Source of the DNA: Thermococcus eurythermalis
GTDB taxonomy: Archaea > Methanobacteriota_B > Thermococci > Thermococcales > Thermococcaceae
NCBI RefSeq assembly: GCF_000769655.1
Contig: NZ_CP008887.1
Coordinates: forward strand, 1,426,001 to 1,490,000
Direction: 5' to 3'
DNA: 64,000 nucleotides
Shown here: in pieces, positions 42,801 to 62,070 of the stretch
Layout of the letters: the number at the start of each line of letters is the position of its first letter
How positions within the stretch are numbered: the stretch's first letter is position 1
Made by a program: the position numbers and the translations under genes
The notes under the pieces: generated by a model
What the model was told of the DNA's origin: nothing
Database searches by the model: none
Seen by the model: the letters and a program-made list of their open reading frames with translations, nothing else

Positions 42801-44398
42801 TTGTTAGAATGCCGCTTTATAGCGTCCATTAGTGAATCCCTTTGGAATCTGCTATAAAAATAGAGGTGTACATAACCATATTTTTGGGATTCTTCAGGGG
42901 ATTTCCAAGGCTTCTTATCGGGTTCTCTATTCTTAAAGAATTCATCAAGGTTCAATTCCTGTGGTTTTACTTCTTTTATTGCTCGGAACAGTTCTTCAAA
43001 GAACTCATCAAGTAGCTGTCTTTCGAACACGTCCATTTTATCTTCATCTTCAGAGAACTCTTGAATAATCTTGACAATCACTTTCTGCTTATTGGAGAGA
43101 GTGTTTTCCACGACTGCACTCAAGATTGCTATTCTGTCGTAAATCGGGTCATGCTGGACAAATATATACGTCCGAATAAGGGATCCTGATGGATAGTTAG
43201 GGGTTATAATATCATCTTCTCTGTAAGTGTCTTTAGGTAAGTTAAATCCGGAACCTTGTAGCCAGTCTGGAAAGTAATCTGGCTCTCCAGCTCTGCGATT
43301 TATCTCCCTTAGAAGCCTGTATGCACCTTGGGAAAGTTTCTGGAGGTTTGTTATGTTCAGGCGTTTTAAGATAGCATTTACTTTTTCGCTATCCTTAGGT
43401 TTAAGAGGTTCAAAATTTTTTGGGCTTAATTTTTCCGGATAGTCATATAGATTCGCTAAGTCCTCTAATGTTTTAATATCCATTTCTTCAAGAAGCTCTT
43501 GGTCTCCAGGCAGGATACCCAATAATCCTAGACTCCGTTCTTCCACAGCTTCTTTGATACACAGGGCTTCATATGGGCAATTTTGACATCTCTTACTGAT
43601 CCAAAACCTTGGGATTTCTTTCCCTTCTATTAGTTTACTAAATGTCCCATCTTTTTTTAGGTGTTGTTTTAAAATCTCAATATATGTTCTCGTTTCTTCG
43701 GGAAATTTAAGAGCTTTTAGGCAGCCTTGTTCTCGGAGTTCATTTAAAATATCAGCATTTGGTCTAATTTCTTCTGAAAATCCACGTTTTTCCAAACAAT
43801 CGTATGCAGAGTTGAGATTGTTCTTTTTTGTGAGAACTGCAACATAGACATTAATGTCCCGATTTTTTATTGAAGTCCTGACTGCATTGTAAATTAACAT
43901 TGCATATGCTACTGCTTGGATTCTATGATGGAACTTTTCTTGATTGGTAAACTTTGCTTCAAAAATCCAGATTTCGACCTTGTGGGGCAAATGCCTTACT
44001 AAGATGATATCGGCCTTGCCTTCAAGTTTGTATATTCCAATTTGACTCTCTATGTGTGGCTGGAAGAAAATACGTTGCTTCTCTTTGTAGAACTGAGGAT
44101 TCAATATATACCAGATTAAGTTTGCAAATTTTTTCTCAGACTTAATTATGTCATTTTCAGGAATACCAGTCATTTGACTCAAGATATTCAATTGTGCTAA
44201 TTCGAAGTTTTCTCCCTGTTCTCTCAATATCTCGTCAATTTTTCCTTTTAATTTGTTTTGTATCTTTTCGTCTAACTGAGAAAGCTCACTTTTAAGTTCC
44301 TCTTTCTTACTCAGCCAGTAAATATATCTCGGACATTTATCAAGCTCAAAATATTTGGCAATCTCACTTGGATGTAGCGTTAAGCTTACTCTATTCAT
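39839..44398 (-). CDS. Dna2/TM0106-like nuclease-helicase
   Basis: A 1519-residue protein. Numbered from ATG 44416 for ease, C28 and C277-x2-C280-x5-C286 form a Cas4/Dna2-type Fe-S cluster around a RecB-like nuclease (D136 in EGKADIIL, E153-A-K155, Q167-x3-Y171). A middle region (YIFVQHDPIYDRIAILSAVV … YVHLYFYSRFQRDSL) resembles the RNase H-like part of TM0106 proteins. The C-terminal third is an SF1B helicase: GPPGTGKT (about 985), VIDEAS (about 1150), VGDHRQMQP, TVERFQGGEKD and NRLNVAMSRMK. Start ATG 44398 follows AAGGTGGC. It is AT-rich and diverges from a DpdA-like gene, which suggests a defence or DNA-modification-linked role. Confidence 0.85.
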   Translation of the reverse strand: MNRVSLTLHPSEIAKYFELDKCPRYIYWLSKKEELKSELSQLDEKIQNKLKGKIDEILREQGENFELAQLNILSQMTGIPENDIIKSEKKFANLIWYILNPQFYKEKQRIFFQPHIESQIGIYKLEGKADIILVRHLPHKVEIWIFEAKFTNQEKFHHRIQAVAYAMLIYNAVRTSIKNRDINVYVAVLTKKNNLNSAYDCLEKRGFSEEIRPNADILNELREQGCLKALKFPEETRTYIEILKQHLKKDGTFSKLIEGKEIPRFWISKRCQNCPYEALCIKEAVEERSLGLLGILPGDQELLEEMDIKTLEDLANLYDYPEKLSPKNFEPLKPKDSEKVNAILKRLNITNLQKLSQGAYRLLREINRRAGEPDYFPDWLQGSGFNLPKDTYREDDIITPNYPSGSLIRTYIFVQHDPIYDRIAILSAVVENTLSNKQKVIVKIIQEFSEDEDKMDVFERQLLDEFFEELFRAIKEVKPQELNLDEFFKNREPDKKPWKSPEESQKYGYVHLYFYSRFQRDSLMDAIKRHSNKLKYYKGIRWILGLRSAIDFKPREQDTVSIIQEDIKRRKALRFPGLGIIVTTAQHRIPGRGDDLWFRWDSSLTSRFENIFKIAAKKEIREDQSVHINLNRLIVASGLEFSGEIYPVINRDLEQIPLEHLWKDIKDEKGRFKLAELAKYFALALRHLERSVPEWYKDATVRKEPIPIDDLEDQGFEEIPLAEVLMEYQKLEHHTKKELMEEYYRLPLKERCSTGKSLLIKIESIERPDNDTTIIHGYALLPDGQRWDLESAPPISLSEDSFVVVTPVIEENGGFRQITKYKDPKSIQYSIPATIQFFDESSGKVSIRLLQPFGIENYEFVVEGHLYVEENKVRRLGNGDITLQPEGYLVIDETIDDINSSRAYDTLNTLRENAGTHPFYSKLDSLYKSQRITQDKIDLMKIKPPWTKNDIEEFVNTFLIEKVNDEQRSFILNWDKSLVTLQGPPGTGKTSWAVSPAILSRVYSSLKQGHDILVLVTGISHRAVNEALTSFLRLFSSLKGEFEGKNINIYRLVNSSEQRDKIQKDVKNEKNKLPEELLSKVKFLNYNKDSIPFSSPKKGNKSLTELIQQPQAFIIFGTTGAISGLSNKKLPNRDKINIAADLIVIDEASMMDLPMFLLATSFLKENGQVLLVGDHRQMQPIQQHDWEHEDRETIEQHTPFLSAINFIRFLRGELSESEREDFKRVLYRNPPLWKDNNLKKDILPFHRLNETYRLPQIVADMLTDLFYIHDNIKLKSKKHEIEKLKEKSEKFKEGLLKHIERLRDNHDTIPIASIIDPEYPVTLVLHDENRSTKVNEVEKIIISEIVKKLPKEYTSEDKLGIVVPFKAQRAQIKSLLRELGLEHVQVDTVERFQGGEKDIIIISLTASDPSYISAVLEFLFNPNRLNVAMSRMKEKLILIGSQEVFNATTKDIQKFEELIEPWRTLFRKIRAYGEKLWSGTLEEFVGELDTSADIYQRILNKYKAINMEVFGINEWPKSP

Positions 44399-44434
44399 AA
44401 TAACTGCCACCTTCATTTTATGAGAAAGTACTAA

Positions 44435-44478: not shown

Positions 44479-46302
44479 ATGTCTGCCCGTCCAAAGCCAC
44501 CACGAGAATTCACATTTTTTCCCGTAGTCAATTTCATAACAGGCCCTCCGGGAGTTCTCCGAAATGGGGGTATATGGAAATCGATTAAAAGAGGAATAAT
44601 ACACGAGCTAAAATTGTCTACAATAATGACTCAAGTTCTTCACTTTGTGGATTTTAATCTCAATGAAAAGAGCTTTAATGAATGGTTTAAGGATGGAAAG
44701 ACATTAAAAGACTGGATTATACAAGAGAATCCAACTTATTCCCCTATTCTTTTCGCAGATAGTGGTGGTTTTAAACTTCTGTATAACCGGGAGTATGATT
44801 TGTCAAAGTACCAACTTAAAGCAACACCCGAAAGCGTTTTGGATTTGCAACTTAAACTTGGTGCTGACTACGTTGCATCTTTGGATTATCCAATACCCCC
44901 CGGACTAAATAAGAAAGAAACTAATGAAAGAATGGAAAAGAGCATTATGAATGCTGTACGCCTGATGGAATTAGTATATGATTCACATGATGTGGATGTT
45001 TTTCCGTATCTTGCTGTCCATGGCAGATCCTACGAAGAAATTCAGTATTATGTCAAAAGATTGTTCAATCTCCTTGAGGAAACCGGATTTAATGAGTATT
45101 CCCACTATCCTTTTGGGTTGGCCATTGGTTCAATGGTTCCAATAAAGAACCATTATGAGCTAATCGTTGAGATAATAAAAGCTCTCAAGGACACATTACT
45201 TGAGATACATTCTGACCCAGAAAAAATTCCCATACATGTTTTTGGAATTTCTGGAAGGATAACTCCTTTCATGTATTATTTGGGAGTAAACAGTTTTGAC
45301 AGTAATACATATGTCAAAGCTGCCCAAAATCTTCAGTTTTTTGTTTCATACACTCAAAAAAAGAAATTTTACACGATAACCAACAGAGATTTGGATTTAT
45401 GCCCATTTTGTGATTGCATCAGAGGACGAAATCTTCAGAAAGCAAAAAAGATACTAAAGAGCAAAAGTTACTCTCGATATATCCTCAATGGGAAAGAAGT
45501 AATCAAGTCGGATATCTATGGTATAATTGCACTTCATAATCTATCTGTTCAATTGAATCTTATAGGAGAACTGAAAAAGTACAATCCTAAATCTCGCGAG
45601 TTTAAAGAGTGGCTTGTTAGATATGCAAATAGTGACAACAAGCTTTTGAAAGTAGTTGCTAAGTTATCAACGATTGACGAAGACTTCATCGATATTGCCA
45701 CTAAATTTAAGTTGAAACTTCCAAAACTCTCCAAGGGCCAGTTTTATGCCCAGAGAATTTCCTTAAAGCGTGATCCCACCAAGTTTGACATAACAAAAAC
45801 ACCGTATAGTGTCTCCCCAGAGAAGAGAGTTATTTTAATCTTATCCTGCACTCCAAAAAAACCATACTCAAAATCTACAACACACAAGCTTATTTTTAGA
45901 TATCTTCAGGAGCATGGTGTTGATATTAAAAAAATTGAAAAGGTTACTCTCTCTGGAATGTATGGTCCGGTTCCCCAGGATTTTGAAAAAGAAACTTCGA
46001 TATTGGAATACGACTTTGTACTATCTTCTCGTACTCCAGAAGAACAAATAACTCTTGTATCCACTAGGCTGAAAGAGTTTTTGGAGGTTCATGCAAAAGA
46101 TAAATGGGTCATTGCATACATCGGGGGTGGACCATACAGGAAAATTGTCCAGAGAGTTCAAAAAGAGCTGAACGGGAAAGTTTCTATAATCCTTCTTCCA
46201 GATGAAACTCAACTAAAAAGAAGAGTTAATTCAGAAGTCAGGAAAAAGACTCATTTAAAGACTCTCGTAGCGACACTAAAGGGACTATTAAAAAATTATT
46301 AA
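44479..46302 (+). CDS. TGT/DpdA-like transglycosylase with ArcS-type domain
   Basis: A 607-residue protein in two parts. Residues about 1-370 are a tRNA-guanine transglycosylase barrel with key residues kept: D94 in FADSGGFKLL, D274 in NSFDSNTYVKAA (nucleophile position), and the zinc site C308-x2-C311-x-C313 with H353 (ALHNLSVQ). Residues about 450-607 are DUF5591-like and carry C457-x3-K461-P-Y-x2-S466-x2-H469, the signature of archaeosine synthase ArcS, which adds lysine to preQ0. No PUA RNA-binding domain is seen. It is diverged from housekeeping TGT and resembles DpdA proteins, which insert 7-deazaguanines into DNA. I infer preQ0 insertion into DNA with further conversion by the same chain. 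AT-rich. Confidence 0.75.
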   Translation: MSARPKPPREFTFFPVVNFITGPPGVLRNGGIWKSIKRGIIHELKLSTIMTQVLHFVDFNLNEKSFNEWFKDGKTLKDWIIQENPTYSPILFADSGGFKLLYNREYDLSKYQLKATPESVLDLQLKLGADYVASLDYPIPPGLNKKETNERMEKSIMNAVRLMELVYDSHDVDVFPYLAVHGRSYEEIQYYVKRLFNLLEETGFNEYSHYPFGLAIGSMVPIKNHYELIVEIIKALKDTLLEIHSDPEKIPIHVFGISGRITPFMYYLGVNSFDSNTYVKAAQNLQFFVSYTQKKKFYTITNRDLDLCPFCDCIRGRNLQKAKKILKSKSYSRYILNGKEVIKSDIYGIIALHNLSVQLNLIGELKKYNPKSREFKEWLVRYANSDNKLLKVVAKLSTIDEDFIDIATKFKLKLPKLSKGQFYAQRISLKRDPTKFDITKTPYSVSPEKRVILILSCTPKKPYSKSTTHKLIFRYLQEHGVDIKKIEKVTLSGMYGPVPQDFEKETSILEYDFVLSSRTPEEQITLVSTRLKEFLEVHAKDKWVIAYIGGGPYRKIVQRVQKELNGKVSIILLPDETQLKRRVNSEVRKKTHLKTLVATLKGLLKNY

Positions 46303-51443: not shown

Positions 51444-52598
51444 TCACACCTTAAGCAGTTTGTTGTAAGCCGCATCTAAAAGCGAAATCAAAACCTCCTT
51501 CAACTCTTCGTTGGCCACGGTTACCCCGCCCCTTATTCTGTTTTTAATGATACTCAGGGCCTCTTCGAGCTCTTCCGGCACGTTGCCTTGCTTTAAAGCA
51601 ATTTCCCTAATAGAAACCAGCTTGGAGTAAGCTTTTGGTAGGCTTCCCTCCATGATGCTATTCTTGGCCTTCTGGAAGAGCTCTAGGAGGTTCACAGTTA
51701 GATGCTTGTCACCTTGGCCAGCGGCGACCGAGACAACGTTATTGTTGCCAACTGTTATCGTTACCGGGGCGTTCGCGTTGGTTATTGTAATGCTTGGAGA
51801 AGCGAGTGAAAGAGTCTGGGCTACTTCAGAGAGTGCTTTCTTAATGGTGTCATAAAGGGGTTTGCTCTGGAACTCTTTTTCCAATTCTCCTATGTCTACG
51901 TTATGCTTCTTGAGATACGACTTAATGTCCATGATAGAATTTAAATTGTCCTTCAGGTACTTCAAAGAAGCCTTTGGGTTATACTGTGTGAGCACCAAAA
52001 CTGAGAGCAGATTTAGGGAGTTCTTGAACATTATCTCCTCGGGAGAATTAATAGAGTACTCTCCGAGTGATATTTTTCCTTTGACATTAACCCCCCCAGT
52101 GCCTCCGTACACTGAATAGTCCATTATATGAACGTCCTGCCCGAGGGATATCCCCGAATTTCCGAATATATCAAAAACTTCCACGTTATCATCTGCTTTC
52201 ACTGTTCCATGTATTGACGCTGCGTACCCTCCGATTTTTGAGCCCGTTCCAATAACCACTTTATTCACAGCAATTATGTTTCCCAACACATTAACGTTGG
52301 TTCTGACAGTTACTTCTCTGCCGACCACGTTCCCAAATACCACAGAACCATCTCCAATCGTAATCTTTCCATTACTCTGAACATTCCCTACAATTGCTAC
52401 GTTTCTACCCACGACCACTCTGTCTTTCCCGAAGAGGGAAGATGTTATTACCCTATCATCATCTGTGGCATCGTCCACTTCTATGCTATTGGCCAGAACA
52501 AAGTCCAAAACTATTGCTGGCCTTTCAATTCTGACGCTTTCTTCAAGGTGACTATTTTGAGGAAAAATCGGCTCTCTCACTACCCCCCTGAGTAACAT
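51444..52598 (-). CDS. bactofilin-like beta-helix protein
   Basis: A 384-residue protein. Residues about 50-180 are short strands ending in Gly/Asn with V-x-V/I-x-G repeats (VVVGRNVAIVGNVQSNGKI, TIGDGSVVFGNVVGREV, NVLGNIIAVNKVVIGTGSKI, GTVKADDNVEVFDIFG), the right-handed beta-helix pattern of bactofilins and other polymer-forming proteins. A helical part follows, then a second strand-rich block (SITITNANAPVTITVGNNN) and a helical tail. No signal peptide. Bactofilins polymerise into filaments near membranes. The gene is downstream of, and one base from, the membrane coiled-coil gene, so the two should act together. Start ATG 52598. Confidence 0.6.
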   Translation of the reverse strand: MLLRGVVREPIFPQNSHLEESVRIERPAIVLDFVLANSIEVDDATDDDRVITSSLFGKDRVVVGRNVAIVGNVQSNGKITIGDGSVVFGNVVGREVTVRTNVNVLGNIIAVNKVVIGTGSKIGGYAASIHGTVKADDNVEVFDIFGNSGISLGQDVHIMDYSVYGGTGGVNVKGKISLGEYSINSPEEIMFKNSLNLLSVLVLTQYNPKASLKYLKDNLNSIMDIKSYLKKHNVDIGELEKEFQSKPLYDTIKKALSEVAQTLSLASPSITITNANAPVTITVGNNNVVSVAAGQGDKHLTVNLLELFQKAKNSIMEGSLPKAYSKLVSIREIALKQGNVPEELEEALSIIKNRIRGGVTVANEELKEVLISLLDAAYNKLLKV

Positions 52599-52599
52599 A

Positions 52600-54702
52600 T
52601 CAACCACCCAGCACCTTCCTTATTTTTGCGACATCTTTCTCGGTCAGGAGGCCCCTCTCCACGAGCTTGTCCAAATTTTTCAGTCCTTCCCTTATTGCCT
52701 TGGTTGGATTGTCCCCCTCCGCTTCTATAAGAATATCGAGCCTGAGAGCTGTTACGATGTCCTTAAATGCTGGGTCTAGAGCTGGGTGTGGGCTCAGTAA
52801 TTCGTTTCTCTTGCCTCTGTTGACAATCGATGGGGGAATTAGTTTCTCTTCTCCCTTCTCGGAAACTATAGCCCACACTGGGATATAGACTACTGTTGGT
52901 TTATTTACCTGCAGGTTTAGAGCCAGACCTCTAATGGTGTTTAGGAAAGCTGTGTGCCTGTTTCTCAGGGCATTAATCGCATCGAGAACACTGGAATACG
53001 CGTCTTGGAGTGCTTTGAGGCGGTTTTCAATAGGTGCCTTTTGATAATTCAGTTCGGACTCAATAACTGTTTCATAGAAGGCATCAATGATGCTCAAATG
53101 TTCATCTCTGATATTAATAAATCTGTCCAAATCCTCGCGAACCCTTTGTATTTGCTTCGTGTAATATTCCTGAATTTCCCGGACTTTCTGGTCGCCTTCA
53201 AGTTTTAATCTTCTAATCTCCGTCTCCATTTCGTTTTCCAGCTCCTCTTTTTCCATCTTAAGCTCTTCGAGTCTCTCAATGTTTGCCTCATACTCTGCTT
53301 TTATTTTCATACCCCGTTCGTAGAGTTTTAGAACATTGTTGTGCAACCGGTCTGCCTGTTTTCTAATCTGATTTGCCCGGCTTAAATAGCTCCGTCTCTC
53401 AGAAGCTGTTTCTGCCCATTGGGCGCGTGATTCATACTCTTCTGCTTCGGATTGATAATTCTTAATTTGGGCTGAGAGGGCCTGGATCTGATTGTTGATA
53501 GATATTAACATCTGTTTTTGTTTTTCTATTTCATGGTTTAATTTCTTAATCTGGTCTTCTTTTCGCATTATTTTCCGTTTGTAGTCCCTTTCTGTTCTCT
53601 CTATACGCCGCTGGGTCTCTTCCCTGGCGGTTCTGATCTCTCTGTTCATCTCAAGGACGTACTCTGAAATTTTGCTCCGGAGTTTTTCTTCAGTGGCATC
53701 AATGTGTCTCTGAAAGATTGCTATCAACGATGTGGTCGGGTACTTCGAATGCAACCTTATGTGATATTTATGATTCACATACGCGTACCCGTATTTTTCG
53801 AGCTCCTCTTTTGTGGGCTTTGCATTAATGTTAACACCGCCAAGAAGGTTCTTTTTCAGAAGTTTTCGTATCTCTGAGAAGTACTTCTCTATTCCCTCCA
53901 GCATAGCTTGTAGCCCGCTGACAAACAAACTGGTGCTCCTGTTCACGCTCCTTTCAATGTCATCAAGAATCCCAATCTCGGTCTCCGCCCGGGTATCGAG
54001 GTTCTCAAGTGTTTTGACAACAGAAATGCCCTCCTTAATCTGCTCCGTCTCAAAAGGCAAACTCCTCGAGGGTCTGTCGTTGACGAAGACGGGGCCAAAT
54101 GCAACGAGGAGGGGCTCCATAACGTTACTACTGACTGCAACCACATTAAAATTCAGCGCAGATTTTGGAGTTAGGGAATTTTTAATCTCGTTAAGTTTGT
54201 TTTGAAAGTCTATCTCGGCGTCTAGGGACTCGTGAGTGGTGGGTAGTTGCCGGGAAATCTCGAAGGCAGTTTGAATATTAGCATCATAAAATGTCAGAGC
54301 TTGCGTTATCACTCCCGGAACGTTTTTTTCGGAGAAGTATGGTGGTACTATGGCCAAGCTGTCTCCCTTGTACGGAACCAGCAAAGTTGGAATGTGGACT
54401 TTTGAGAAGAGTTTTATTGGATGTGGCCTTATCGTCAATTGGGCCAACACTGCGGTTCCTATTCCAGCCCCCACTAGGCCCACACCCAACATGGGGTTGG
54501 CCGTTTGCAAGAGCGCGATAAGTCCCACACCTGCTGTGGTTATTCCAGCTAACGTTGCTAATTTTTTCTTTTTCAACGAGCTTTCCGCGGATATCCTGTA
54601 TGCTTCAACGGTTAAAAGGGCCTTTTCTTCCTCTTCGTCTAGTGGAAAGTCATCAATAAAAACACTGGATTTAAGGGTTAGATGGTGTAATTCTTCTCCC
54701 AT
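52600..54702 (-). CDS. membrane-anchored coiled-coil protein
   Basis: A 700-residue protein. Residues about 47-92 form one or two membrane segments (LATLAGITTAGVGLIALLQ, GVGLVGAGIGTAVLAQL). A soluble N-terminal half follows, then a long coiled coil at about 345-545 (REETQRRIERTERDYKRKI, MEKEELENEMETEIRRL) and a helical C terminus ending KNLDKLVERGLLTEKDVAKI. I recognise no family. The arrangement (membrane anchor plus long rod) suits a scaffold tying a filament to the membrane, and its operon partner is the bactofilin-like protein. ATG 54702 follows GGGAGGGGGC. It is divergent from the ESCRT-like operon. Confidence 0.65.
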   Translation of the reverse strand: MGEELHHLTLKSSVFIDDFPLDEEEEKALLTVEAYRISAESSLKKKKLATLAGITTAGVGLIALLQTANPMLGVGLVGAGIGTAVLAQLTIRPHPIKLFSKVHIPTLLVPYKGDSLAIVPPYFSEKNVPGVITQALTFYDANIQTAFEISRQLPTTHESLDAEIDFQNKLNEIKNSLTPKSALNFNVVAVSSNVMEPLLVAFGPVFVNDRPSRSLPFETEQIKEGISVVKTLENLDTRAETEIGILDDIERSVNRSTSLFVSGLQAMLEGIEKYFSEIRKLLKKNLLGGVNINAKPTKEELEKYGYAYVNHKYHIRLHSKYPTTSLIAIFQRHIDATEEKLRSKISEYVLEMNREIRTAREETQRRIERTERDYKRKIMRKEDQIKKLNHEIEKQKQMLISINNQIQALSAQIKNYQSEAEEYESRAQWAETASERRSYLSRANQIRKQADRLHNNVLKLYERGMKIKAEYEANIERLEELKMEKEELENEMETEIRRLKLEGDQKVREIQEYYTKQIQRVREDLDRFINIRDEHLSIIDAFYETVIESELNYQKAPIENRLKALQDAYSSVLDAINALRNRHTAFLNTIRGLALNLQVNKPTVVYIPVWAIVSEKGEEKLIPPSIVNRGKRNELLSPHPALDPAFKDIVTALRLDILIEAEGDNPTKAIREGLKNLDKLVERGLLTEKDVAKIRKVLGG

Positions 54703-54746
54703 TTTGCCCCCTCCCGTTGCAGAATCTAATTAACAAACCTGCTTGA

Positions 54747-54765
54747 GGATAAATAAATTTTATCC
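54747..54765 (-). promoter_or_regulatory. palindrome over the TATA region of the coiled-coil gene
   Basis: GGATAAA-TAAAT-TTTATCC is a perfect 7-base inverted repeat about 45-60 bases before ATG 54702, overlapping an AAATTTATTTATCC stretch that could be the TATA box. A repressor binding here would block the promoter. Candidate only. Confidence 0.35.
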
Positions 54766-55100
54766 TTTGTTTCTCCTAACGTTTTACAAATTTCTTAATT
54801 GTATGTACCGTATTGCCCAGCTGAGAAGAATACAATTATGGAACTCCAACCGGGGGCTACTTCTGAAAAGTACAACCTACTGTATCTTCCAAAAGAGGCA
54901 TTTACCATTTTTAAGGCGCTGATAGGAGGCACCCTTAACCAAACGAAAATAATTTATTCCATAACCTCACTGCTCATATGTAGCGCAATTGTACCACAAA
55001 AATATTCAGCGTAATCGGGGGTATCACATGTCCACTGTGTGGGACACAAAAATTCAGTGAGGATTGTAGAGAGACTTAACATCTCTCCATATTGGAGAAA
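54766..55100. other. divergent intergenic region of the ESCRT-like locus
   Basis: This stretch holds no convincing gene; a plus-strand frame of 71 codons at 54799-55014 has no ribosome site and unusual composition. Two inverted repeats lie near the right promoter: TGTCCAC…GTGGGACA (about 55029-55046) and AGAGA-x8-TCTCT (about 55068-55087). They are possible regulator sites, about 15-70 bases before the TATA box at 55101. Confidence 0.35.
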
Positions 55101-55110
55101 ACTTTAAATA
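55101..55110 (+). promoter_or_regulatory. TATA box of the ESCRT-like operon
   Basis: ACTTTAAATA after GGAGAAA (BRE-like). The expected transcript start is near 55130, 13 bases before ATG 55143. This should drive the plus-strand operon that begins with 55143-55673. Confidence 0.5.
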
Positions 55111-55142
55111 AGATAGACGACTAATCCCCGGCAGTGGTACGT

Positions 55143-55673
55143 ATGGGATATATAATCTTTGTCACGTATGATAATGATGCGGAGAGAAAAAGGATAGACT
55201 ATCTTCTTGATAAGTGGTCCTCCCAGGCCACCCTGAAAAAGCCCCGGGGAACAGTATTCTACATCGAAACGGATAATACCCGGGATTTTCTGGAGGAGCT
55301 GTTCTCAAGGCTTGAGGGCAATGCAGAGGAGAAAGTGGAAGTTTATTATGCAAAGAAAGTCGAGAGTAACGTCAAGGCAAGGAGGAGGGTTCTTGAATAC
55401 ACTATAAACGAGGAGAAGAAAGTTGTTGAGAAATTCATTGACTATCTGCTATCTAAGATAAACTCCAGTTATTCCCATTCGGAAGACGACACCAAAATAT
55501 ACAACGTGTACACTAGGAAGGGCAGGGCCACGATAAGGGCCACCATTCATGGAGACAGGAGAACCAGGACAAGTTTGGAGATTGAGGGTTACGGTGATGT
55601 GGTAGATTTTCTAGCTGAACGGATAGACGAAGAGCTTAAACTGTTTGCAGGTGGTGGAGATGGGAATATTTGA
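55143..55673 (+). CDS. uncharacterised protein, first gene of the ESCRT-like operon
   Basis: A 176-residue soluble protein of mixed strands and helices: GYIIFVTYDNDAERKRIDYL, a strand-rich middle (GTVFYIETDNTRDF, KVEVYYAKKVES), a long helix (EEKKVVEKFIDYLLSKIN) and a strand pair (GRATIRATIHGDRRTRTSLEI). I do not recognise a family. It is the promoter-proximal gene and overlaps the next gene by 14 bases, so it belongs to the operon. The start is ATG 55143; the frame begins three codons earlier without a better ribosome site. Confidence 0.62.
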   Translation: MGYIIFVTYDNDAERKRIDYLLDKWSSQATLKKPRGTVFYIETDNTRDFLEELFSRLEGNAEEKVEVYYAKKVESNVKARRRVLEYTINEEKKVVEKFIDYLLSKINSSYSHSEDDTKIYNVYTRKGRATIRATIHGDRRTRTSLEIEGYGDVVDFLAERIDEELKLFAGGGDGNI

Positions 55674-57486
55674 GGAAGGAAAAACTGACTGTGTTAAGGA
55701 ACTGCTCCGCCCCGCAGAGAGTGTCCTGAACGAAGGCCTTGACATTGCAGTGGAAGATTTCAGGATGAGAGAAAAACTCTGGCAGTCAATAGAAGAGAAC
55801 TACTACCGCTACCGCAGGGGGGATTGCGGCACCTTCCTGAAAGACCTGGACGTTCACTTTAGAAGCAAGTTCGAGGGGGCTCTAGCTATACTTGCTTGGA
55901 GCTTCTGGCAGAACGGAGAGACTTATCCACCCGCCACCAGAAGGTACAGCAACAGGGAGCTTACGGCCATTGAGCGGATTCTGCGCTACAACGTCTTTGA
56001 GCTGTACTCCAAGGAAGACATACTAAAGAATATAATGCACAGAGACACCAATGTTCTTACCCTGCTGAGGGACTACTACCGGGGAACTGACCGCTGGATA
56101 GACGAGTTCCTCAACGATTCAAACGTGAAGCTCTACCTGAGGTACTTCCTCAAGACTAAGTGGGACTCATACAAGGAAAAATTAAACTCGGCGATAGCTG
56201 AGGCAATAATCCGCTTTGACTGGATAAGGGACTACCTCTTAATGGAAGACGAGAGAACTGAGGCCGTAGCAGAGGCATACCGGCACCAAGTTGAGAACCT
56301 GAGGCGGCAGATGGTGGAGCTGAGAAGGAACTTTGAACGGGAGAAAGAAGAGCTTAGGAGAAGACTTGAAACCGCCAAGGAAGCTGAAATATCCCGGCTT
56401 CTTCGTGAGAAAGAAGAAATGAAGAAACAGTTCGAGGAAGAAAGACAGAGACTAATAGACGAAATCAGCAAGATGAAGGACGAGGAAGCAAGACAAATGC
56501 TTGAGGAAGAGCTCAGCAAGATGCAGAGAGAGATGATGGCAAACATAAAGGCAATGGAAGAGGAGATACGGAGGAAGGAGCTTGAACTTCAGCAAAAAGA
56601 AATGGAGCTTCGCAGAAAAGAGCTGAAACTGAAGGAGAAAGAAGATGAAGTTTCAAAGCGGATCAAACAGGTAATGGAACTTGCAGGCAAAGTCGAGAAG
56701 GGTTCGCGCTTCGTTAAGCTTGATGAGGCGAGAATGCTCGAGATAAACTTTGTTGGAAGGATGAAGAGCAAGTTCAAAGACGAAATTAAGCTCTTAAGCA
56801 GGAACTTCAAGGCCACCAGCGTTGAGGAAAAGGGAACATTTGATAAGAGCGGTTACGCTGGCAAGCTGAGTGAAAGAGACCTCAAGAACGTCCCGGACAA
56901 CAGGATGGTGGAAGTCAGGCTCAAGGAAAAGAAGCTCTTCGGAAAGAAGGAAGAAATAACAGTGCGGGCACTCTTCTATGGAAGGCCCGAGCGCTACGCT
57001 GAAGCCGGCTTTGATACCGACCCCCTCGAACTGGCTGACATCAACGCTCTCTTGGTCGATGCCCGCGACGAAGCAAAGAACGGCAGGATAGTCCTTCTGG
57101 TTGCATCTCCGACTGGCTTCGAGAAGAGAATAGCAAACTACGTTAATTCGAACGACTTCCACAGAAACTTCATTTCTGAGAACGTCTCCTTGGCCCTCCT
57201 TGACCTTGAGAGTGGCGAGCTTATCTACAACCCACATGACGAATACGCGAAGGCCTTCGAACCCATACTCCGCCTTGAGCGGGACAACGAGCTCATCTCC
57301 AAGGTCAAGAACTTCCTTGAGGAAAGGATACTGCAGAAAGGATACGTCCGTCTGGAAGAGGCCGCTGAGGAATTCACGGAGGACATGGTGAAGCAGGCCT
57401 TCCACGAGCTCTCGAAAGAGAGAGGGTACATAACCAAGTTTGTCGATGGCGTGGGTTACGTCCTCGTTAGGGAGGGGTTCCTCTGA
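55660..57486 (+). CDS. coiled-coil protein with C-terminal winged helix
   Basis: A 608-residue protein. Residues about 1-190 are a helical, charged domain (DRWIDEFLNDSNVKLYLRYFL). Residues about 200-350 are a long coiled coil (RQMVELRRNFEREKEELRRR; EKEMELRRKELKLKEKEDEV-like heptads). Residues about 370-520 are a mixed domain (VRALFYGRPERYAEAGFD; ADINALLVDARDEAKNGRIV, an alpha/beta fold). The end looks like a winged helix (YVRLEEAAEEFTEDMVKQAF, GYITKFVDGVGYVLV). No known family. ATG 55660 follows GGTGGTGGAG. Winged helices and coiled coils are common in ESCRT and Cdv adaptors, which makes it a candidate adaptor; this is inference. Confidence 0.65.
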   Translation: MGIFEEGKTDCVKELLRPAESVLNEGLDIAVEDFRMREKLWQSIEENYYRYRRGDCGTFLKDLDVHFRSKFEGALAILAWSFWQNGETYPPATRRYSNRELTAIERILRYNVFELYSKEDILKNIMHRDTNVLTLLRDYYRGTDRWIDEFLNDSNVKLYLRYFLKTKWDSYKEKLNSAIAEAIIRFDWIRDYLLMEDERTEAVAEAYRHQVENLRRQMVELRRNFEREKEELRRRLETAKEAEISRLLREKEEMKKQFEEERQRLIDEISKMKDEEARQMLEEELSKMQREMMANIKAMEEEIRRKELELQQKEMELRRKELKLKEKEDEVSKRIKQVMELAGKVEKGSRFVKLDEARMLEINFVGRMKSKFKDEIKLLSRNFKATSVEEKGTFDKSGYAGKLSERDLKNVPDNRMVEVRLKEKKLFGKKEEITVRALFYGRPERYAEAGFDTDPLELADINALLVDARDEAKNGRIVLLVASPTGFEKRIANYVNSNDFHRNFISENVSLALLDLESGELIYNPHDEYAKAFEPILRLERDNELISKVKNFLEERILQKGYVRLEEAAEEFTEDMVKQAFHELSKERGYITKFVDGVGYVLVREGFL

Positions 57487-57519
57487 CTTGGTCCTCTTAC
57501 GTATTTGGAGGTGTATGGT

Positions 57520-58119
57520 ATGAAAATACGTGATATATTCGGAAGGAAGAACACCATCGAGAAGCTCTCCCTTAGGGAGCTTCAGGCCGAGGAGATAAGG
57601 TTGAGGAACAGGCTGGAGAGGCTCAAGAGGGAACTCAACCAGATAGAGAAGAAAAAGAAGCAGCTCTTCCAAGAGGGAATCGGGGCTGACAAGCTCAAGA
57701 AGAAGATGCTTGCCCAGGAGATAAAGAGCCTCGATATGGAGCAGAAGCTCAAGCTCAAGGACTTTACGACCGCACAGAGGCAATACACCCTCATAAAGAA
57801 CCTCATTATCGTAAAGAGGTACGAGAAGGAACTTCGGAAAGTTGGCATCTGGGAGAAGCTCAGCAATGTCGAACCCGAGCAGCTCGAACAGGCTCTGATA
57901 AAGATAAACCTCGACGGCAAGGAATTCGATGAGATGGTCGAGGGCTTGAACAGGGTCTTTGAGATGGAGATTGCCGAGTTCGAGGAGACTGAAGACCAGA
58001 CCGAGAGGGAACTCATGAAGGCCTGGAGCCAAGTCGAATCGGGGGAGGCCGATGTGGAAGACGTAGCCGAGAAAGTTGTCTCCATCGACCGCAGACTTGA
58101 GGAGGACGAGGAACTATGA
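57520..58119 (+). CDS. ESCRT-III/Snf7-like protein A
   Basis: A 199-residue, highly charged helical protein. After a short N terminus with IFGRKNTIEKLSLRELQ comes a long helical hairpin (residues about 18-105; RLRNRLERLKRELNQIEKKK, then QKLKLKDFTTAQRQYTLIKN), a break at W111-E-K-L-S-N-V-E-P-E, shorter helices, an acidic region (EFEETEDQTERELMKAW) and the tail SIDRRLEEDEEL. This order (FFG-K-like start, basic hairpin, acidic C half, RL-type terminal helix) is that of Snf7/CHMP and CdvB proteins; the terminal helix recalls an MIM1 motif that binds MIT domains. It is a paralogue of the next gene. ATG 57520 follows GGAGGTG. A similarity search is needed to confirm. Confidence 0.6.
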   Translation: MKIRDIFGRKNTIEKLSLRELQAEEIRLRNRLERLKRELNQIEKKKKQLFQEGIGADKLKKKMLAQEIKSLDMEQKLKLKDFTTAQRQYTLIKNLIIVKRYEKELRKVGIWEKLSNVEPEQLEQALIKINLDGKEFDEMVEGLNRVFEMEIAEFEETEDQTERELMKAWSQVESGEADVEDVAEKVVSIDRRLEEDEEL

Positions 58120-58730
58120 CAATTCTCTCCCGCTTTTTTGGAAGGAAGAACCCCCTTGACATCCCCCTCTCGAAGCTCAGGGAGAGCCAGATAAAGCTGG
58201 AATATCAAATTGAGAGGATAGAAAAGGAATTAGTTTCCACAGATCAGGAAATAGCGAGACTCTTTGAGCAGGCAAGGAGAGCCAGAAGCAAGAGCGAGGA
58301 GCTCACGATAGCCACCAAGATAAAGACCCTCAACCAGCGCAAGAAGAACCTCCAAAAGACCCACGTGCAGCTCAACAAGCAGCTTATGCTCATAAGCAAC
58401 CTCGTGATAATCAAGGAGAATGAGGCTTTTCTGAAAGGGACACCGACATGGAACCTTCTCAAGAATATGTCGCCGGAGGAGCTTGAAAGGCACCTCACGG
58501 AGATGCAGCTTGACGCTCAGAACTTCAACGAGAACCTCAACCAGATGCTTGGCATGACTGACCAGACAATCGGTACTGGTGTGGACTTTGAGGAAGATGA
58601 GGAGCTGGCGGAGATTATGAAGACAATACACGCGGTCAAGGAGGGCGAGCTTGAGCCGGAGGTCGCTGCTGAGAAGGTGGCAGGGGAGAAACACGAGAAG
58701 AAAAAGGAGGACTGGCTGGAGGAGCTGTGA
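58116..58730 (+). CDS. ESCRT-III/Snf7-like protein B
   Basis: A 204-residue paralogue of protein A, starting within its stop codon (ATGA). Residues 6-11 read RFFGRK, as in the N terminus of Snf7/CHMP4 (FFG-x-K). Helical hairpin at about 17-105 (LRESQIKLEYQIERIEKEL), then T111-WNLLKNMSPEELERHLTEM, an acidic stretch FEEDEELAEIMKTI at 158-171 close to the CHMP4 pattern, and the C-terminal KKEDWLEEL. Both paralogues share N-L-x-I-I-K, W-x-x-L and the -WLEEL/-RLEEDEEL ends. Together with the Vps4-like ATPase two genes on, it argues for polymer assembly and ATP-driven disassembly on membranes. Confidence 0.62.
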   Translation: MTILSRFFGRKNPLDIPLSKLRESQIKLEYQIERIEKELVSTDQEIARLFEQARRARSKSEELTIATKIKTLNQRKKNLQKTHVQLNKQLMLISNLVIIKENEAFLKGTPTWNLLKNMSPEELERHLTEMQLDAQNFNENLNQMLGMTDQTIGTGVDFEEDEELAEIMKTIHAVKEGELEPEVAAEKVAGEKHEKKKEDWLEEL

Positions 58731-58878
58731 GCCCGGGGGTTTGATCTTTTTCTTTTAAATTCTCACACGGTTAGAATACACCAAGCCGGCATGCAGTACA
58801 CCCCGCTGAAGTCAATGGCAGGGCCTTCGGAGTGAAAAGATATCCTGCCCGTTGGGAAGACCCAAGCAGGAAAAGAAA

Positions 58879-60819
58879 ATGGTAACCCTATGTGAGCCGA
58901 AAAGCCCGTCAAGGGGTGTGATTGACTTGGACAAACTCGTTGCCAAGATAAACTGGTCTTTTAACCGCTGGAAGGGTTTTGACTGGGAGGCGTTTAGGAG
59001 AAGGCATGAATCCGGGTTTGAATTTGTCAGAAGGACAGGATATGCCCATGAATGGTGGAATTTCTACGAAAAATTTTCGCGGGATAATTATTACGGTTCC
59101 ATCATCACGAGGCCTCAAAAGTTCGGCAGAGGGTTTGTGTTTTTCATAAGCAGAAATCCCTTAGATGGCAAATGGTATTTTGTTGGATTTTACAGCGACG
59201 CGGTAATGCCTCCTGATTACGTTTCCACGGGGGTACCCATGAGGGACCTTCTTCCAGAGGTCGTCGTAAAAGACATTGAAACACTAGTTAAATCCTCCAA
59301 CTGGAAGGATAGACACCTGGCCTATTTATCGCGGGTACTTTCTGGAGAGGAATATCGCACAGTGTTTGTTGCTCCAAAGGAGTGTTCTGCCTCCTTCTTG
59401 CCCGAAGCCTATATCGAAGTGCACCCCGAGGACATAGGCGTTGGACGGGTCGAGGGTCAGTGGAAGATAACGTACAAAATAACAAGAAGCCAAATTGAAA
59501 GGCTATTAACTGAAACGAAGAGGAGACACGAAGCAATTGGCAGCGAGGAAGCAAAAGAAATAGTGCGGAGAATAGACAGGGCATTGGCGAAGCTAAGGGT
59601 TCTTGGCCCAAAAGGTGAAGAGAAAAAGAAGAGAGAAACCCAGATAAAAACCATTTCAGACGTCTCCACTGTGCCCATGAGCTTTCCAGAAGAATTGCTC
59701 GAGAGCTATGAACCAGTCGAGTTTCTTGGCGAAGGTGGCTTCGCAAAGGTCTTCAGGGCCAGAAGAAAGGACGACGGCACCATCGTTGCCATCAAAATAC
59801 CGCACATTGACAGGAAAACGAGCGCACTCTTCATCAAGGAGGTCGCCGCCTGGTACAATCTCAACCACGAGAACATAGTCAGGCTTTACAAAGCTGATAT
59901 CCTGCCCAGGCCATACCTGGAGATGGAGCTCGTTGAGGGTGCTGAAGTAAATGGAAAGCTCATTAGAAATCTCGACGAGTATCCAAAGCCTGTTGATGAA
60001 AAAACCGCTTTAAGTATTGTTAGAGGTATCGCCAAGGGTTTAGCCCATGCCCACTCAAAGGGAATTTACCACCTTGACCTCAAGCCTCTGAATATTCTTC
60101 TCAAGGCCAACTTGACTCCGAAGATAACCGACTGGGGCCTGGCGAAGATAAGCGCTAGGAGCTCGCTGAGCAGGCACTACGGCTACTCGCCGCTCTATGC
60201 GGCCCCAGAACAGCTCGACGAGGAAACATTTGGGACTCCCGACCACCGGACAGACATCTACCAGCTTGGCCTAATCTTCTACGAGCTCCTGACCGGTAAG
60301 TCCCCGTATGAAGCAACGTCCCCGGCTTCCCTCTTCGGGAAAATCCTCCAAGCAAAACCAATGCCTCCCTCAAGGGTTAATCCAGCCCTTGCCAAGTACG
60401 ACGGTATTTTCGAGAGGCTTCTGGCAAAGCAAAAGGAGGAGCGTTACCAGAGTGTAGATGAGTTCATAGAAGCACTGGACTCCCTTGAAGAGCTGAACAA
60501 CGAACTCGATGAGTTAAAGAGAACAAAGGAAACCCTCAAGCGGAGCCGCTCTGGAAAGGAAATACAGAGGCTCCGGAGAGAGATAATCGAAAAAACCGCC
60601 GAAATAGCGGTTCTAAGGGCCAGGCTTAACGATAAGGCAGGGTTGCTGAATGCTTTGGAAGACTTGAAGTTCTACACGTGGAAGAACCTTGACGACCTGC
60701 TCAATGCCATCGCCCAGGTGGAGATGCTGCTGGAGGAAGGAATTCCTGTTGGCAATGACCTAATTGAACGGCTTACAGTCTTACTGCATAGGATTCAGAG
60801 AGAAAATGATGTATTTTAG
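58879..60819 (+). CDS. Ser/Thr protein kinase with novel N-terminal domain
   Basis: A 646-residue protein. Residues about 25-210 form a domain with WWNFYEKFSRDNYYGSI and FVFFISRNPLDGKWYFVGFY, which looks like an EVE/YTH-type barrel (weak). The kinase spans about 278-540: glycine loop LGEGGFAKVF, K306 in VAIKIP, H398-L-D400-LKPLN, D418-WG (DWG in place of DFG), YAAPEQL and DIYQLGLIFYELLTG. All catalytic residues are present; HLD replaces HRD, so activation may not need loop phosphorylation. A coiled coil and helical tail follow and match the tail of the second kinase (LNDKAGLLNALEDLK). Start at ATG 58879 has only a weak AGGAAAAG site. A promoter may lie near 58750-58765. Confidence 0.82.
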   Translation: MVTLCEPKSPSRGVIDLDKLVAKINWSFNRWKGFDWEAFRRRHESGFEFVRRTGYAHEWWNFYEKFSRDNYYGSIITRPQKFGRGFVFFISRNPLDGKWYFVGFYSDAVMPPDYVSTGVPMRDLLPEVVVKDIETLVKSSNWKDRHLAYLSRVLSGEEYRTVFVAPKECSASFLPEAYIEVHPEDIGVGRVEGQWKITYKITRSQIERLLTETKRRHEAIGSEEAKEIVRRIDRALAKLRVLGPKGEEKKKRETQIKTISDVSTVPMSFPEELLESYEPVEFLGEGGFAKVFRARRKDDGTIVAIKIPHIDRKTSALFIKEVAAWYNLNHENIVRLYKADILPRPYLEMELVEGAEVNGKLIRNLDEYPKPVDEKTALSIVRGIAKGLAHAHSKGIYHLDLKPLNILLKANLTPKITDWGLAKISARSSLSRHYGYSPLYAAPEQLDEETFGTPDHRTDIYQLGLIFYELLTGKSPYEATSPASLFGKILQAKPMPPSRVNPALAKYDGIFERLLAKQKEERYQSVDEFIEALDSLEELNNELDELKRTKETLKRSRSGKEIQRLRREIIEKTAEIAVLRARLNDKAGLLNALEDLKFYTWKNLDDLLNAIAQVEMLLEEGIPVGNDLIERLTVLLHRIQRENDVF

Positions 60820-60838
60820 ATGGTAGGAGGTGTTTAAA

Positions 60839-62032
60839 ATGTCCGTCGACCTTTCCGGCCCCCTGATGTCCGCCTTTAGAAAGGCCAAGAGGGAGTTTGA
60901 GGATGCCATAAAGAAGGGGGATAAGGAAACCGCCAGAAAGAAAGCCCTCGAATGCTCACGCATACTGAAACAGCTCTCAAAGTATGATGAGTTCAACCGC
61001 GAGAGCTACCTTCAAAAGTCCAAAAAGTGGAAAGCCATAGCCAAGGACATTGAGGCTGGTCGCTACGGAGTGAGACAGAAGCACCGGCCGATGAAGGAGG
61101 GCGGAAACGGAAGAAACGAAGATGGTGTCGAGGAGGAAGACAAGTTTAAACAGTACGTTGAGAACCTTATAGTGAAGTCAAAAGTCAGGTGGAGTGACAT
61201 AGGCGGCCTGGAAGACGTAAAGATGCTGATGATGGAAACGATAGTAATCTCCGCTCTGCAGAGGCCAGAATCAATCCAGCCCTGGAAGGGCATCCTCCTC
61301 TTTGGTCCTCCGGGAACGGGTAAGACCCTCCTGGCGAGTGCCGCCGCCGGCAGTTTGAACGCGACTTTCTTCAGCGTCAAAGCCAGCAACGTGCTGAGCA
61401 AGTACTTCGGCGAGTCCACCAAGATAATCTCGGCCCTCTATGAGGTGGCGAGGGAGAGGGCTCCGAGCATAGTGTTCCTGGACGAGATAGACGCGCTGAC
61501 GACGAAGCGCTCCGGAGACCAGAGTGAGGCGAGCAGGAGAATGCTTGCAACACTCCTCACCGAGCTTGACGGCTTTCAGGACAAGAAGAGCGACCTGCTC
61601 GTTTTAACGCTTGCCGCCACTAACACGCCATGGGATCTGGACGAGGCCGTTCTCTCGCGCTTCCCGCGCAGAATTTACATCCCACTGCCTGACAAGAGGG
61701 CCACAAAGGAGATTATCAAGATAAACACGCGCGGGCTCGACATAAGCAGACTTGACCTTGACGCCATAGCGGAGGAGAGCGTCAGGAGGCTGTACTCAGG
61801 CAGGGACATCAAAAACCTCTGCCAGGAGGCAATATGGAACATGATAAGGGAAGAGAACAGAGACCTGCACAAGCTCGCTGAGCTCCCGTTCCAAGAGCTC
61901 AGGAAGCGCTCCCTTAAAACCAGACCGCTTGAGATGAGGGACTTTGAGGCCGCTTTCAAGAGGATTAAGAGCCCGCTGACGAGGAAGGACATCGAGCGCT
62001 ATGAAAAGTGGGCGGAGGAGTTCGGGGGATAA
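60839..62032 (+). CDS. cdvC: MIT-AAA ATPase, Vps4/CdvC-like
   Basis: A 397-residue ATPase. Residues about 10-75 form an MIT-like three-helix bundle (AFRKAKREFEDAIKKGDKE, SYLQKSKKWKAIAKDIEAG). The AAA domain has I-G-G-L-E-D, Walker A G156-PPGTGKT, Walker B FLDEID, sensor N262 and Arg fingers in SRFPRR. The stretch ATNTPWDLDEAVLSRFPRR and then IYIPLP is the Vps4-clade form. The end, DFEAAFKRIKSPLTRKDIER then YEKWAEEFGG, matches the Vps4/CdvC C-terminal helix. Vps4 takes apart ESCRT-III polymers after binding their tails through MIT. Two Snf7-like genes lie just upstream. ATG 60839 follows GGAGGTG. Confidence 0.85.
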   Translation: MSVDLSGPLMSAFRKAKREFEDAIKKGDKETARKKALECSRILKQLSKYDEFNRESYLQKSKKWKAIAKDIEAGRYGVRQKHRPMKEGGNGRNEDGVEEEDKFKQYVENLIVKSKVRWSDIGGLEDVKMLMMETIVISALQRPESIQPWKGILLFGPPGTGKTLLASAAAGSLNATFFSVKASNVLSKYFGESTKIISALYEVARERAPSIVFLDEIDALTTKRSGDQSEASRRMLATLLTELDGFQDKKSDLLVLTLAATNTPWDLDEAVLSRFPRRIYIPLPDKRATKEIIKINTRGLDISRLDLDAIAEESVRRLYSGRDIKNLCQEAIWNMIREENRDLHKLAELPFQELRKRSLKTRPLEMRDFEAAFKRIKSPLTRKDIERYEKWAEEFGG

Positions 62033-62070
62033 ATTTTTGATGAGAATTTGAGTTTAGGGAGGAACGTGAT

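Follow-up and report, generated by a model that had tools for sequence, protein, structure and literature searches.

Introduction

The 'Main' loci of the endosomal sorting complexes required for transport (ESCRT) in euryarchaea encode Vps4, ESCRT-III, genes similar to arCOG08177 and arCOG09748, and membrane-associated Ser/Thr kinases with a C-terminal helical domain; the paper that describes them (Makarova et al., 2024, PMC10936438) sees their function in the formation of vesicles and the sorting of proteins. The kinase C-terminal domain was assigned a PCI/winged-helix fold by HHpred, and oligomerisation or contact with a winged-helix protein was suggested as its role (PMC10936438). Here we describe two adjoining genes, BACT and CC700, that diverge from an operon of this type in a 64,000-nucleotide stretch of Thermococcus eurythermalis DNA (the whole of which is called the window), taken from a 2.13 Mb genome on two contigs in the class Thermococci.

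The other described proteins closest to this pair are the bactofilins, defined by a core of ~110 residues with unstructured flanking tails (PMC12448750). Halofilins are archaeal members of the family that act in shape control (PMC12186497), and 11 of the 115 Thermococci genomes, as well as Haloferax volcanii, have a match to profile PF04519 above its cut-off; a first-pass annotation of this DNA, which held that euryarchaeal bactofilins are seldom discussed, is therefore outdated on this point. Bactofilin and ESCRT are both mentioned around chromosome segregation in passages of a further paper, neither in relation to the present system (PMC12284271).

Results

Linkage of the Gene Pair to the ESCRT Operon

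BACT (51444–52598, minus strand) encodes 384 amino acids from an ATG at 52598, or 386–387 from a GTG at 52604–52607, and CC700 (52600–54702, minus strand) encodes 700. The CC700 stop codon lies at 52600–52602, so that one base separates the genes if BACT starts at ATG 52598; an alternative in-frame GTG at 52607 gives an overlap instead. Both genes are transcribed divergently from the ESCRT operon (55134–63531) across an intergenic region (54703–55133, no strand, 39% G+C) of 431 bases to the operon GTG at 55134, or 440 bases to the ATG at 55143. The first-pass annotation had placed two open reading frames (ORFs) here, one base apart and divergent from an ESCRT-like operon across a 440-base control region, and this layout holds with the start codons named. 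Orthologs are present in two other genomes, with BACT/CC700 identities of 62%/59% in G063 and 58%/48–49% in G077, and against G063 dN is well below dS (0.26 vs. 1.38 for BACT, 0.28 vs. 2.17 for CC700); for both reasons the sequence comparison indicates that BACT and CC700 are real genes under purifying selection.

Distribution was surveyed in 115 Thermococci genomes (the phylum-level search covered the same number as the class-level search), with the gene for the operon's 613-amino-acid protein as operon marker. Full-length BACT was found in three of them (the window genome, G063 and G077), with a fourth copy truncated by the end of its contig in G087, and CC700 was found in the same three. 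All three complete pairs adjoin the operon and diverge from it. The pair is thus not widespread without the operon; the opposite result would have counted against the proposed association. A wider contig scan with BACT as query returned one locus, on the same contig as G077. In the window the pair is flanked by a substrate-binding-protein gene, and in G063 and G077 its neighbour is PAPS-reductase-like, so that pair and operon stay together in two different chromosomal settings. Fisher's exact p for presence of the pair against presence of the operon is 0.04, weak alone, and adjacency is the stronger evidence of the link. Because 40 of the 115 genomes have the operon marker and three have the pair, the pair is an optional accessory of the operon.

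Weak BACT matches in six other Thermococci genomes (E 1e-6 to 1e-3) were dropped; the four that were read (L005, L006, L008, and L009) lack the BACT C-terminus, L007 and L010 were not read, and further profile matches with E of 1e-4 to 1e-9 were also dropped. An origin in mobile elements was considered and rejected: neither protein matched a plasmid or viral contig, and CC700 matched no phage (BACT was not searched in phages).

A C-Terminal Domain Probably Shared with the Operon Kinases

An iterative profile of the C-terminal region of the operon's Ser/Thr kinases recruited BACT. As iteration can feed on itself, the profile was rebuilt from kinases only (64 rows). Against this profile the BACT rows gave HMMER E-values of 5e-4, 0.01, 0.051, and 0.43 (best decoy 0.16) and were among the best non-kinase matches, and hhalign aligned the profile with four BACT rows at a probability of 79.9 and a score of 33.25; the alignment covers 57 columns, of which 19% are identical. 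None of 200 column shuffles or 100 seven-column block shuffles reached this score (best 21.6); reversed profiles scored 13.5 and 13.9, and 16 segments of CC700 and ESCRT-III scored at most 13.6. In a comparison that covered 112 gene families of these loci, BACT among them, the kinase family alone stood out, at 32.3 against 18.5 for the next non-self family. In the reverse direction, a BACT-only profile run against 2261 ORFs matched, outside BACT itself, two kinase ORFs alone (E 0.0014 and 0.0076). These profile comparisons point to a probable homology between the last ~60 residues of BACT (approximately 51459–51644, minus strand) and the helical domain at the C-terminus of the operon kinases. 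Among 111 neighbouring families no comparable shared domain was found, the nearest values being 28.7 over 21 columns for the BACT linker and 26.5 over 23 columns for the CC700 C-terminus.

The domain is closely tied to kinases and to the operon. In the fetched loci, 62 of 64 domain-bearing ORFs also contain a kinase, the exceptions being the truncated BACT of G087 and a 259-amino-acid ORF. By genome, the domain occurs in 39 of 40 with the operon marker versus 8 of 75 without it, in counts uncorrected for relatedness among genomes. Several of the eight marker-less genomes are incomplete assemblies, and two (G071 and G084) carry an operon-type Vps4; the sole marker genome without the domain, G040, has a weak and partial marker match. 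Extra copies of the domain lie elsewhere in the window genome, downstream of the window (G000:C1:1491918-1497285) and ~140 kb away (1625905-1626285).

Structure and Affinities of BACT

The AlphaFold2 (AF2) model of BACT consists of a beta-solenoid with strands across residues 23–193, where the predicted local distance difference test (pLDDT) is mostly 70–91, a low-confidence linker (194–302), and a helical bundle (300–385) that contains the kinase-type region. The first-pass annotation had proposed a beta-helix, and the modelled solenoid bears this out; its handedness was approached indirectly. A Z-score on the DALI scale is built on internal distances and is blind to handedness, and LpxD-type helices are left-handed. 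LpxD, LpxA, and GlmU match the model with Z of ~11–13 and a root-mean-square deviation (rmsd) of 10.5–11 Å over ~150–170 residues, whereas the tapirin C-terminal domain (4wa0) matches with Z 12.2 and 2.9 Å over 149 residues. Because the left-handed helices match by distance and superpose badly, and tapirin superposes well, the modelled BACT solenoid is probably right-handed.

The nearest Pfam family to window BACT is FapA (PF03961; 30.7 bits, E 3.2e-7, residues 68–265), just short of the curated cut-off of 31 bits. Against the Bactofilin profile (PF04519, cut-off 27.9) it scores 14.2 bits, and the orthologs in G063 and G077 score 22.1 and 24.1 bits. Over the three orthologs scanned, one matches FapA at E ≤ 0.01, two match Bactofilin, and all three match the eIF2B left-handed-helix model. 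The solenoid core comprises ~170 residues and is followed by the helical bundle, outside the core size and unstructured tails that define bactofilins. Because profile score and core size both fail, BACT is not to be classed as a bactofilin, although it resembles a bactofilin-type scaffold in outline; 'bactofilin type', as the gene was labelled in the first pass, was too specific. No bactofilin structure is among the 50 structural matches listed for BACT, and one may stand further down; Foldseek searches of PDB and BFVD yielded no match at E ≤ 0.001. Other marks of bactofilins are a right-handed, triangular helix, polymerisation independent of nucleotides, and a membrane-targeting peptide at the N-terminus; window BACT and its G063 ortholog begin with MLLRGV-R-E, which is hydrophobic and basic.

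A connection to ESCRT-I through the Vps28 C-terminus (2j9w, Z 11.2, 2.4 Å), which superposes on the BACT bundle, was set aside: CheA HPt domains and designed bundles reach equal scores. Coiled coil and beta-solenoid occur together, without the BACT C-terminus, in single proteins at L005, L006, L008, and L009; with L051 and L086 these form a set in which a coiled coil is fused to a bactofilin-like beta-solenoid, and some members exceed the PF04519 cut-off.

CC700

CC700 has two adjacent hydrophobic stretches, at residues 48–66 and 71–89, in all three orthologs. Model confidence is low there, and the sequence is consistent with a membrane hairpin, as the membrane anchor of the first-pass annotation would have it. 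Further along, the AF2 model has a coiled-coil hairpin (323–594) with helices at 323–428 and 433–594 and pLDDT of 80–93 over about 340–520, the one part of the model that is confident (mean pLDDT 55.2). A coiled coil had been foreseen, and its estimated length of 200 residues was too short. No convincing Pfam family was found for CC700; a SHOCT-like C-terminus was weak (E 0.12, in one ortholog), and matches to SMC/Rad50 and tape-measure proteins were set aside as generic coiled coil. The G077 copy (L024:10381-12478) is split over two frames, by assembly error or as a pseudogene; G077 is a metagenome-assembled genome of Thermococcus sp.

The ESCRT Operon and Its Operator

The operon lies wholly on the plus strand. 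It opens with a gene for 179 amino acids (55134–55673) that fits arCOG08177 of the 'Main' loci by position and size, followed by the marker gene (55645–57486), whose 613-residue helical/coiled-coil product fits arCOG09748 by order, size, and description. Two ESCRT-III-like proteins come next (57505–58119 and 58116–58730); the second scores 18.5 bits (E 0.0016) against Pfam Snf7, below the cut-off of 27.3, with 2 of 12 rows matching at E ≤ 0.1, and no PDB match was obtained for the ESCRT-III-like protein. A Ser/Thr kinase (58852–60819) with its C-terminal helical domain at residues 521–655 precedes the Vps4-like AAA ATPase (60830–62032), in which the Vps4_C domain that marks 'Main' loci scores 36.7 bits over a cut-off of 21.3. 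The last gene is a second Ser/Thr kinase (62071–63531), which has a hydrophobic stretch at its N-terminus and the helical domain at its C-terminus. A second Vps4-like paralog, 58–61% identical to the first and ~7–22 kb from it, is present in G038, G039, G043, G050, G053, G054, G062, G065, G070, G076, and G088; several copies contain one in-frame TGA.

A palindrome, TCTCCATATTGGAGA (55084–55098, no strand), immediately precedes the operon's TATA region, AACTTTAAATA. It reads TCTCCA-N3-TGGAGA and is the single exact site in the genome when spacings of N2–5 are searched. Among 39 operon upstream regions (38 fetched plus the window, G070 contributing two), 33 have it at ≤2 mismatches and 36 at ≤3 mismatches, the latter including a G106 site that by eye does not precede the TATA region; random stretches of the same loci gave ≤2 mismatches in 267 of 4000, a background inflated by the operator itself. 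In the regions that do not fit (G097, G102, and G110) a gene for 241–244 amino acids lies immediately upstream, and on the G106 contig a partial ORF occupies that place. Conservation of the palindrome in most relatives' ESCRT operon promoters points to a putative dedicated regulator. On the opposite strand, the sequence at 54746–54764 (minus strand) may, judged by eye, be a TATA element for transcription of CC700 and BACT.

The Slot Upstream of the Operon

Where the pair is absent, the slot upstream of the operon holds a pentapeptide-repeat channel-like gene, extra kinases, a 187-amino-acid family, the gene for 241–244 amino acids, or nothing, the operon then being joined directly to its neighbours. 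In G042, G045, G083, and one G070 locus, TmcA-NYN-NYN-substrate-binding protein joins the operon directly, which is the window arrangement minus the pair. The pentapeptide-repeat protein, with a C-terminus that by eye is ion-channel-like, occupies the divergent position at L028:18725-19864, L036:17748-18887, L055, L056, and L081, and its relatives also occur within the operon. The gene for 241–244 amino acids heads the operon in another lineage (L040:16934-17659, L072, and L083), and its 21-column match to the BACT linker (hhalign 33.6%) may be chance.

Elsewhere in the window, a gene for 1525 amino acids (39839–44416), which we take to be nuclease/helicase-like, has 37.5% G+C against 49.7% for the window and adjoins a gene for 607 amino acids (44479–46302), presumably TGT-like; the two are a possible acquired DNA-modification or defence unit.

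Discussion

The pair always stands beside the operon and the kinase-type domain of BACT tracks the operon, and because of these two observations we read BACT and CC700 as an accessory module of the ESCRT 'Main' locus that is optional and restricted to Thermococcus, a membrane scaffold that would join the kinase-ESCRT machinery by means of a common docking domain; we put the probability of this reading at roughly 0.45. The analysis itself shows gene structure, linkage, the beta-solenoid model and, by profiles, the kinase-type domain; we infer membrane anchoring, self-assembly, a docking partner, an effect on ESCRT, and a scaffold function. CC700 would be anchored in the membrane through its N-terminal hydrophobic hairpin and would carry the long coiled-coil hairpin, and BACT, with its FapA/bactofilin-like solenoid, a flexible linker, and the helical domain common to the operon kinases, may self-assemble or stack near the membrane with CC700 as anchor. 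Stacked BACT would present many copies of the kinase-type domain, for which the simplest reading, by analogy with the kinases, is oligomerisation or winged-helix contact; it might dock on or cluster the kinases' partner, be it the kinases themselves or a winged-helix protein. Through such docking, kinase signalling and ESCRT assembly could be either focused or held back at selected sites on the membrane. A stronger form, in which the pair is a dedicated cytoskeletal ESCRT scaffold, a membrane-tethered beta-solenoid polymer that displays the docking domain and sets the sites of ESCRT assembly and phosphorylation, seems to us somewhat unlikely; it would tie a bactofilin-like filament to ESCRT.

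Several results weigh against the accessory-module reading. The operon mostly lacks the pair, which is present in 3 of its 39 upstream regions, and the pair therefore cannot be a general requirement for positioning the machinery. The best palindrome site in the 200 bases before CC700 has 4–5 mismatches in the three genomes, which is background level; judged by sequence, BACT and CC700 are probably outside the control of the operon's operator, and co-regulation is unsupported because the palindrome is absent from the pair's promoter. The homology of BACT to the kinase domain depends on 57 columns at 19% identity, the HMMER E-values against the kinase-only profile are weak, with window BACT the weakest, and a 10-row kinase alignment reaches a probability of only 44.2 (E 2.3e-4). 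The AF2 models of BACT and CC700 were built on 3–4 aligned rows (three for BACT, with a whole-model mean pLDDT of 64.3), CC700 of G077 is frameshift-broken in its assembly, and membrane location, polymerisation, and ESCRT contact are predictions. The suggestion of the first-pass annotation, that a scaffold places the remodelling machinery at the membrane, gains from the linkage, the beta-helix, and the kinase-type C-terminus of BACT, and loses from the scarcity of the pair among operons, the unshared operator, and the lack of bactofilin membership.

The unshared operator is also what would be expected if BACT and CC700 were passenger genes with a function of their own, one of several unrelated insertions into a variable slot. 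The contents of that slot do differ by species, from pentapeptide-repeat channel-like genes, extra kinases, and the 187-amino-acid family to nothing, and the G+C content at third codon positions of the pair (0.49) is below that of TmcA and the substrate-binding protein (0.78–0.79), although the first operon gene has 0.50 as well (Vps4, 0.71). An insertion of this kind is nevertheless unlikely, given that three of three complete pairs adjoin the operon in two chromosomal settings and that the probable kinase-type domain of BACT tracks the operon. The same domain could instead make BACT a competitive regulator, its kinase-less copy titrating the docking partner and damping kinase signalling; BACT has no kinase domain, and outside the G087 BACT fragment and the 259-amino-acid ORF every protein with the domain in these loci (62 of 64) has a kinase as well. 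A large beta-solenoid and a partner such as CC700 are superfluous for a simple decoy, and we regard this role as quite unlikely.

Two further readings take a wider or a narrower view of the locus. The operon, kinases, and pair might together respond to conflict or membrane damage, with the pair as variable sensor or effector: species differ strongly in the number and length of the kinases and in the flanking genes, the first kinase matches the PADLOC models PD-T4-6 and mad6, and Vps4 matches IetA, although such matches are generic for kinases and AAA ATPases. No PADLOC model matches BACT or CC700, and the published view of 'Main' ESCRT is one of vesicle formation and protein sorting (PMC10936438), which leaves a conflict system improbable. 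Conversely, the sub-threshold Bactofilin and FapA scores of the solenoid, together with the part that bactofilin-family proteins play in archaeal shape control (PMC12186497), would suit a bactofilin-like cytoskeleton that shapes the cell independently of ESCRT, comparable to halofilins and bacterial bactofilins. This is very unlikely for a pair that is found in just 3–4 of 115 genomes, occurs in complete form beside the ESCRT operon only, and has in BACT a probable ESCRT-kinase-type domain. Should the domain match or the scaffold idea fail, what is left is two ordinary accessory genes that occupy a variable slot. As a beta-helix protein that probably bears the C-terminal domain of the kinases, BACT offers a handle on the kinase-ESCRT connection and on the placement of the machinery in the cell, and archaeal ESCRT systems would appear able to recruit bactofilin-like proteins, usually studied in bacterial cell shape.

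Among known systems, PspA/Vipp1, of the bacterial ESCRT-III superfamily, superposes on the CC700 hairpin (4whe, Z 13.1, 1.9 Å over 119 residues; 7o3w, Z 11.9, 1.8 Å over 116 residues), as the hairpins of p85 inter-SH2 and the dynein stalk do equally well (1.7–2.2 Å); the match was rejected as evidence of kinship because the hairpin is a common shape. FapA is the nearest Pfam family of window BACT, which differs from it in falling just below the cut-off, in lacking a flagellar context, and in having another C-terminal domain. With bactofilins, archaeal halofilins included, BACT shares a beta-solenoid with short G/V/I repeats, whereas their core of ~110 residues and unstructured tails (PMC12448750) contrast with its ~170 residues and structured, kinase-type C-terminal domain. 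The operon fits the euryarchaeal 'Main' loci of Makarova et al. (2024) by gene order and sizes, and the available text of that paper (PMC10936438) mentions neither the BACT-CC700 pair nor 'bactofilin' or 'beta-helix'; the ESCRT operon is already known, and the pair alone is new to the published picture.

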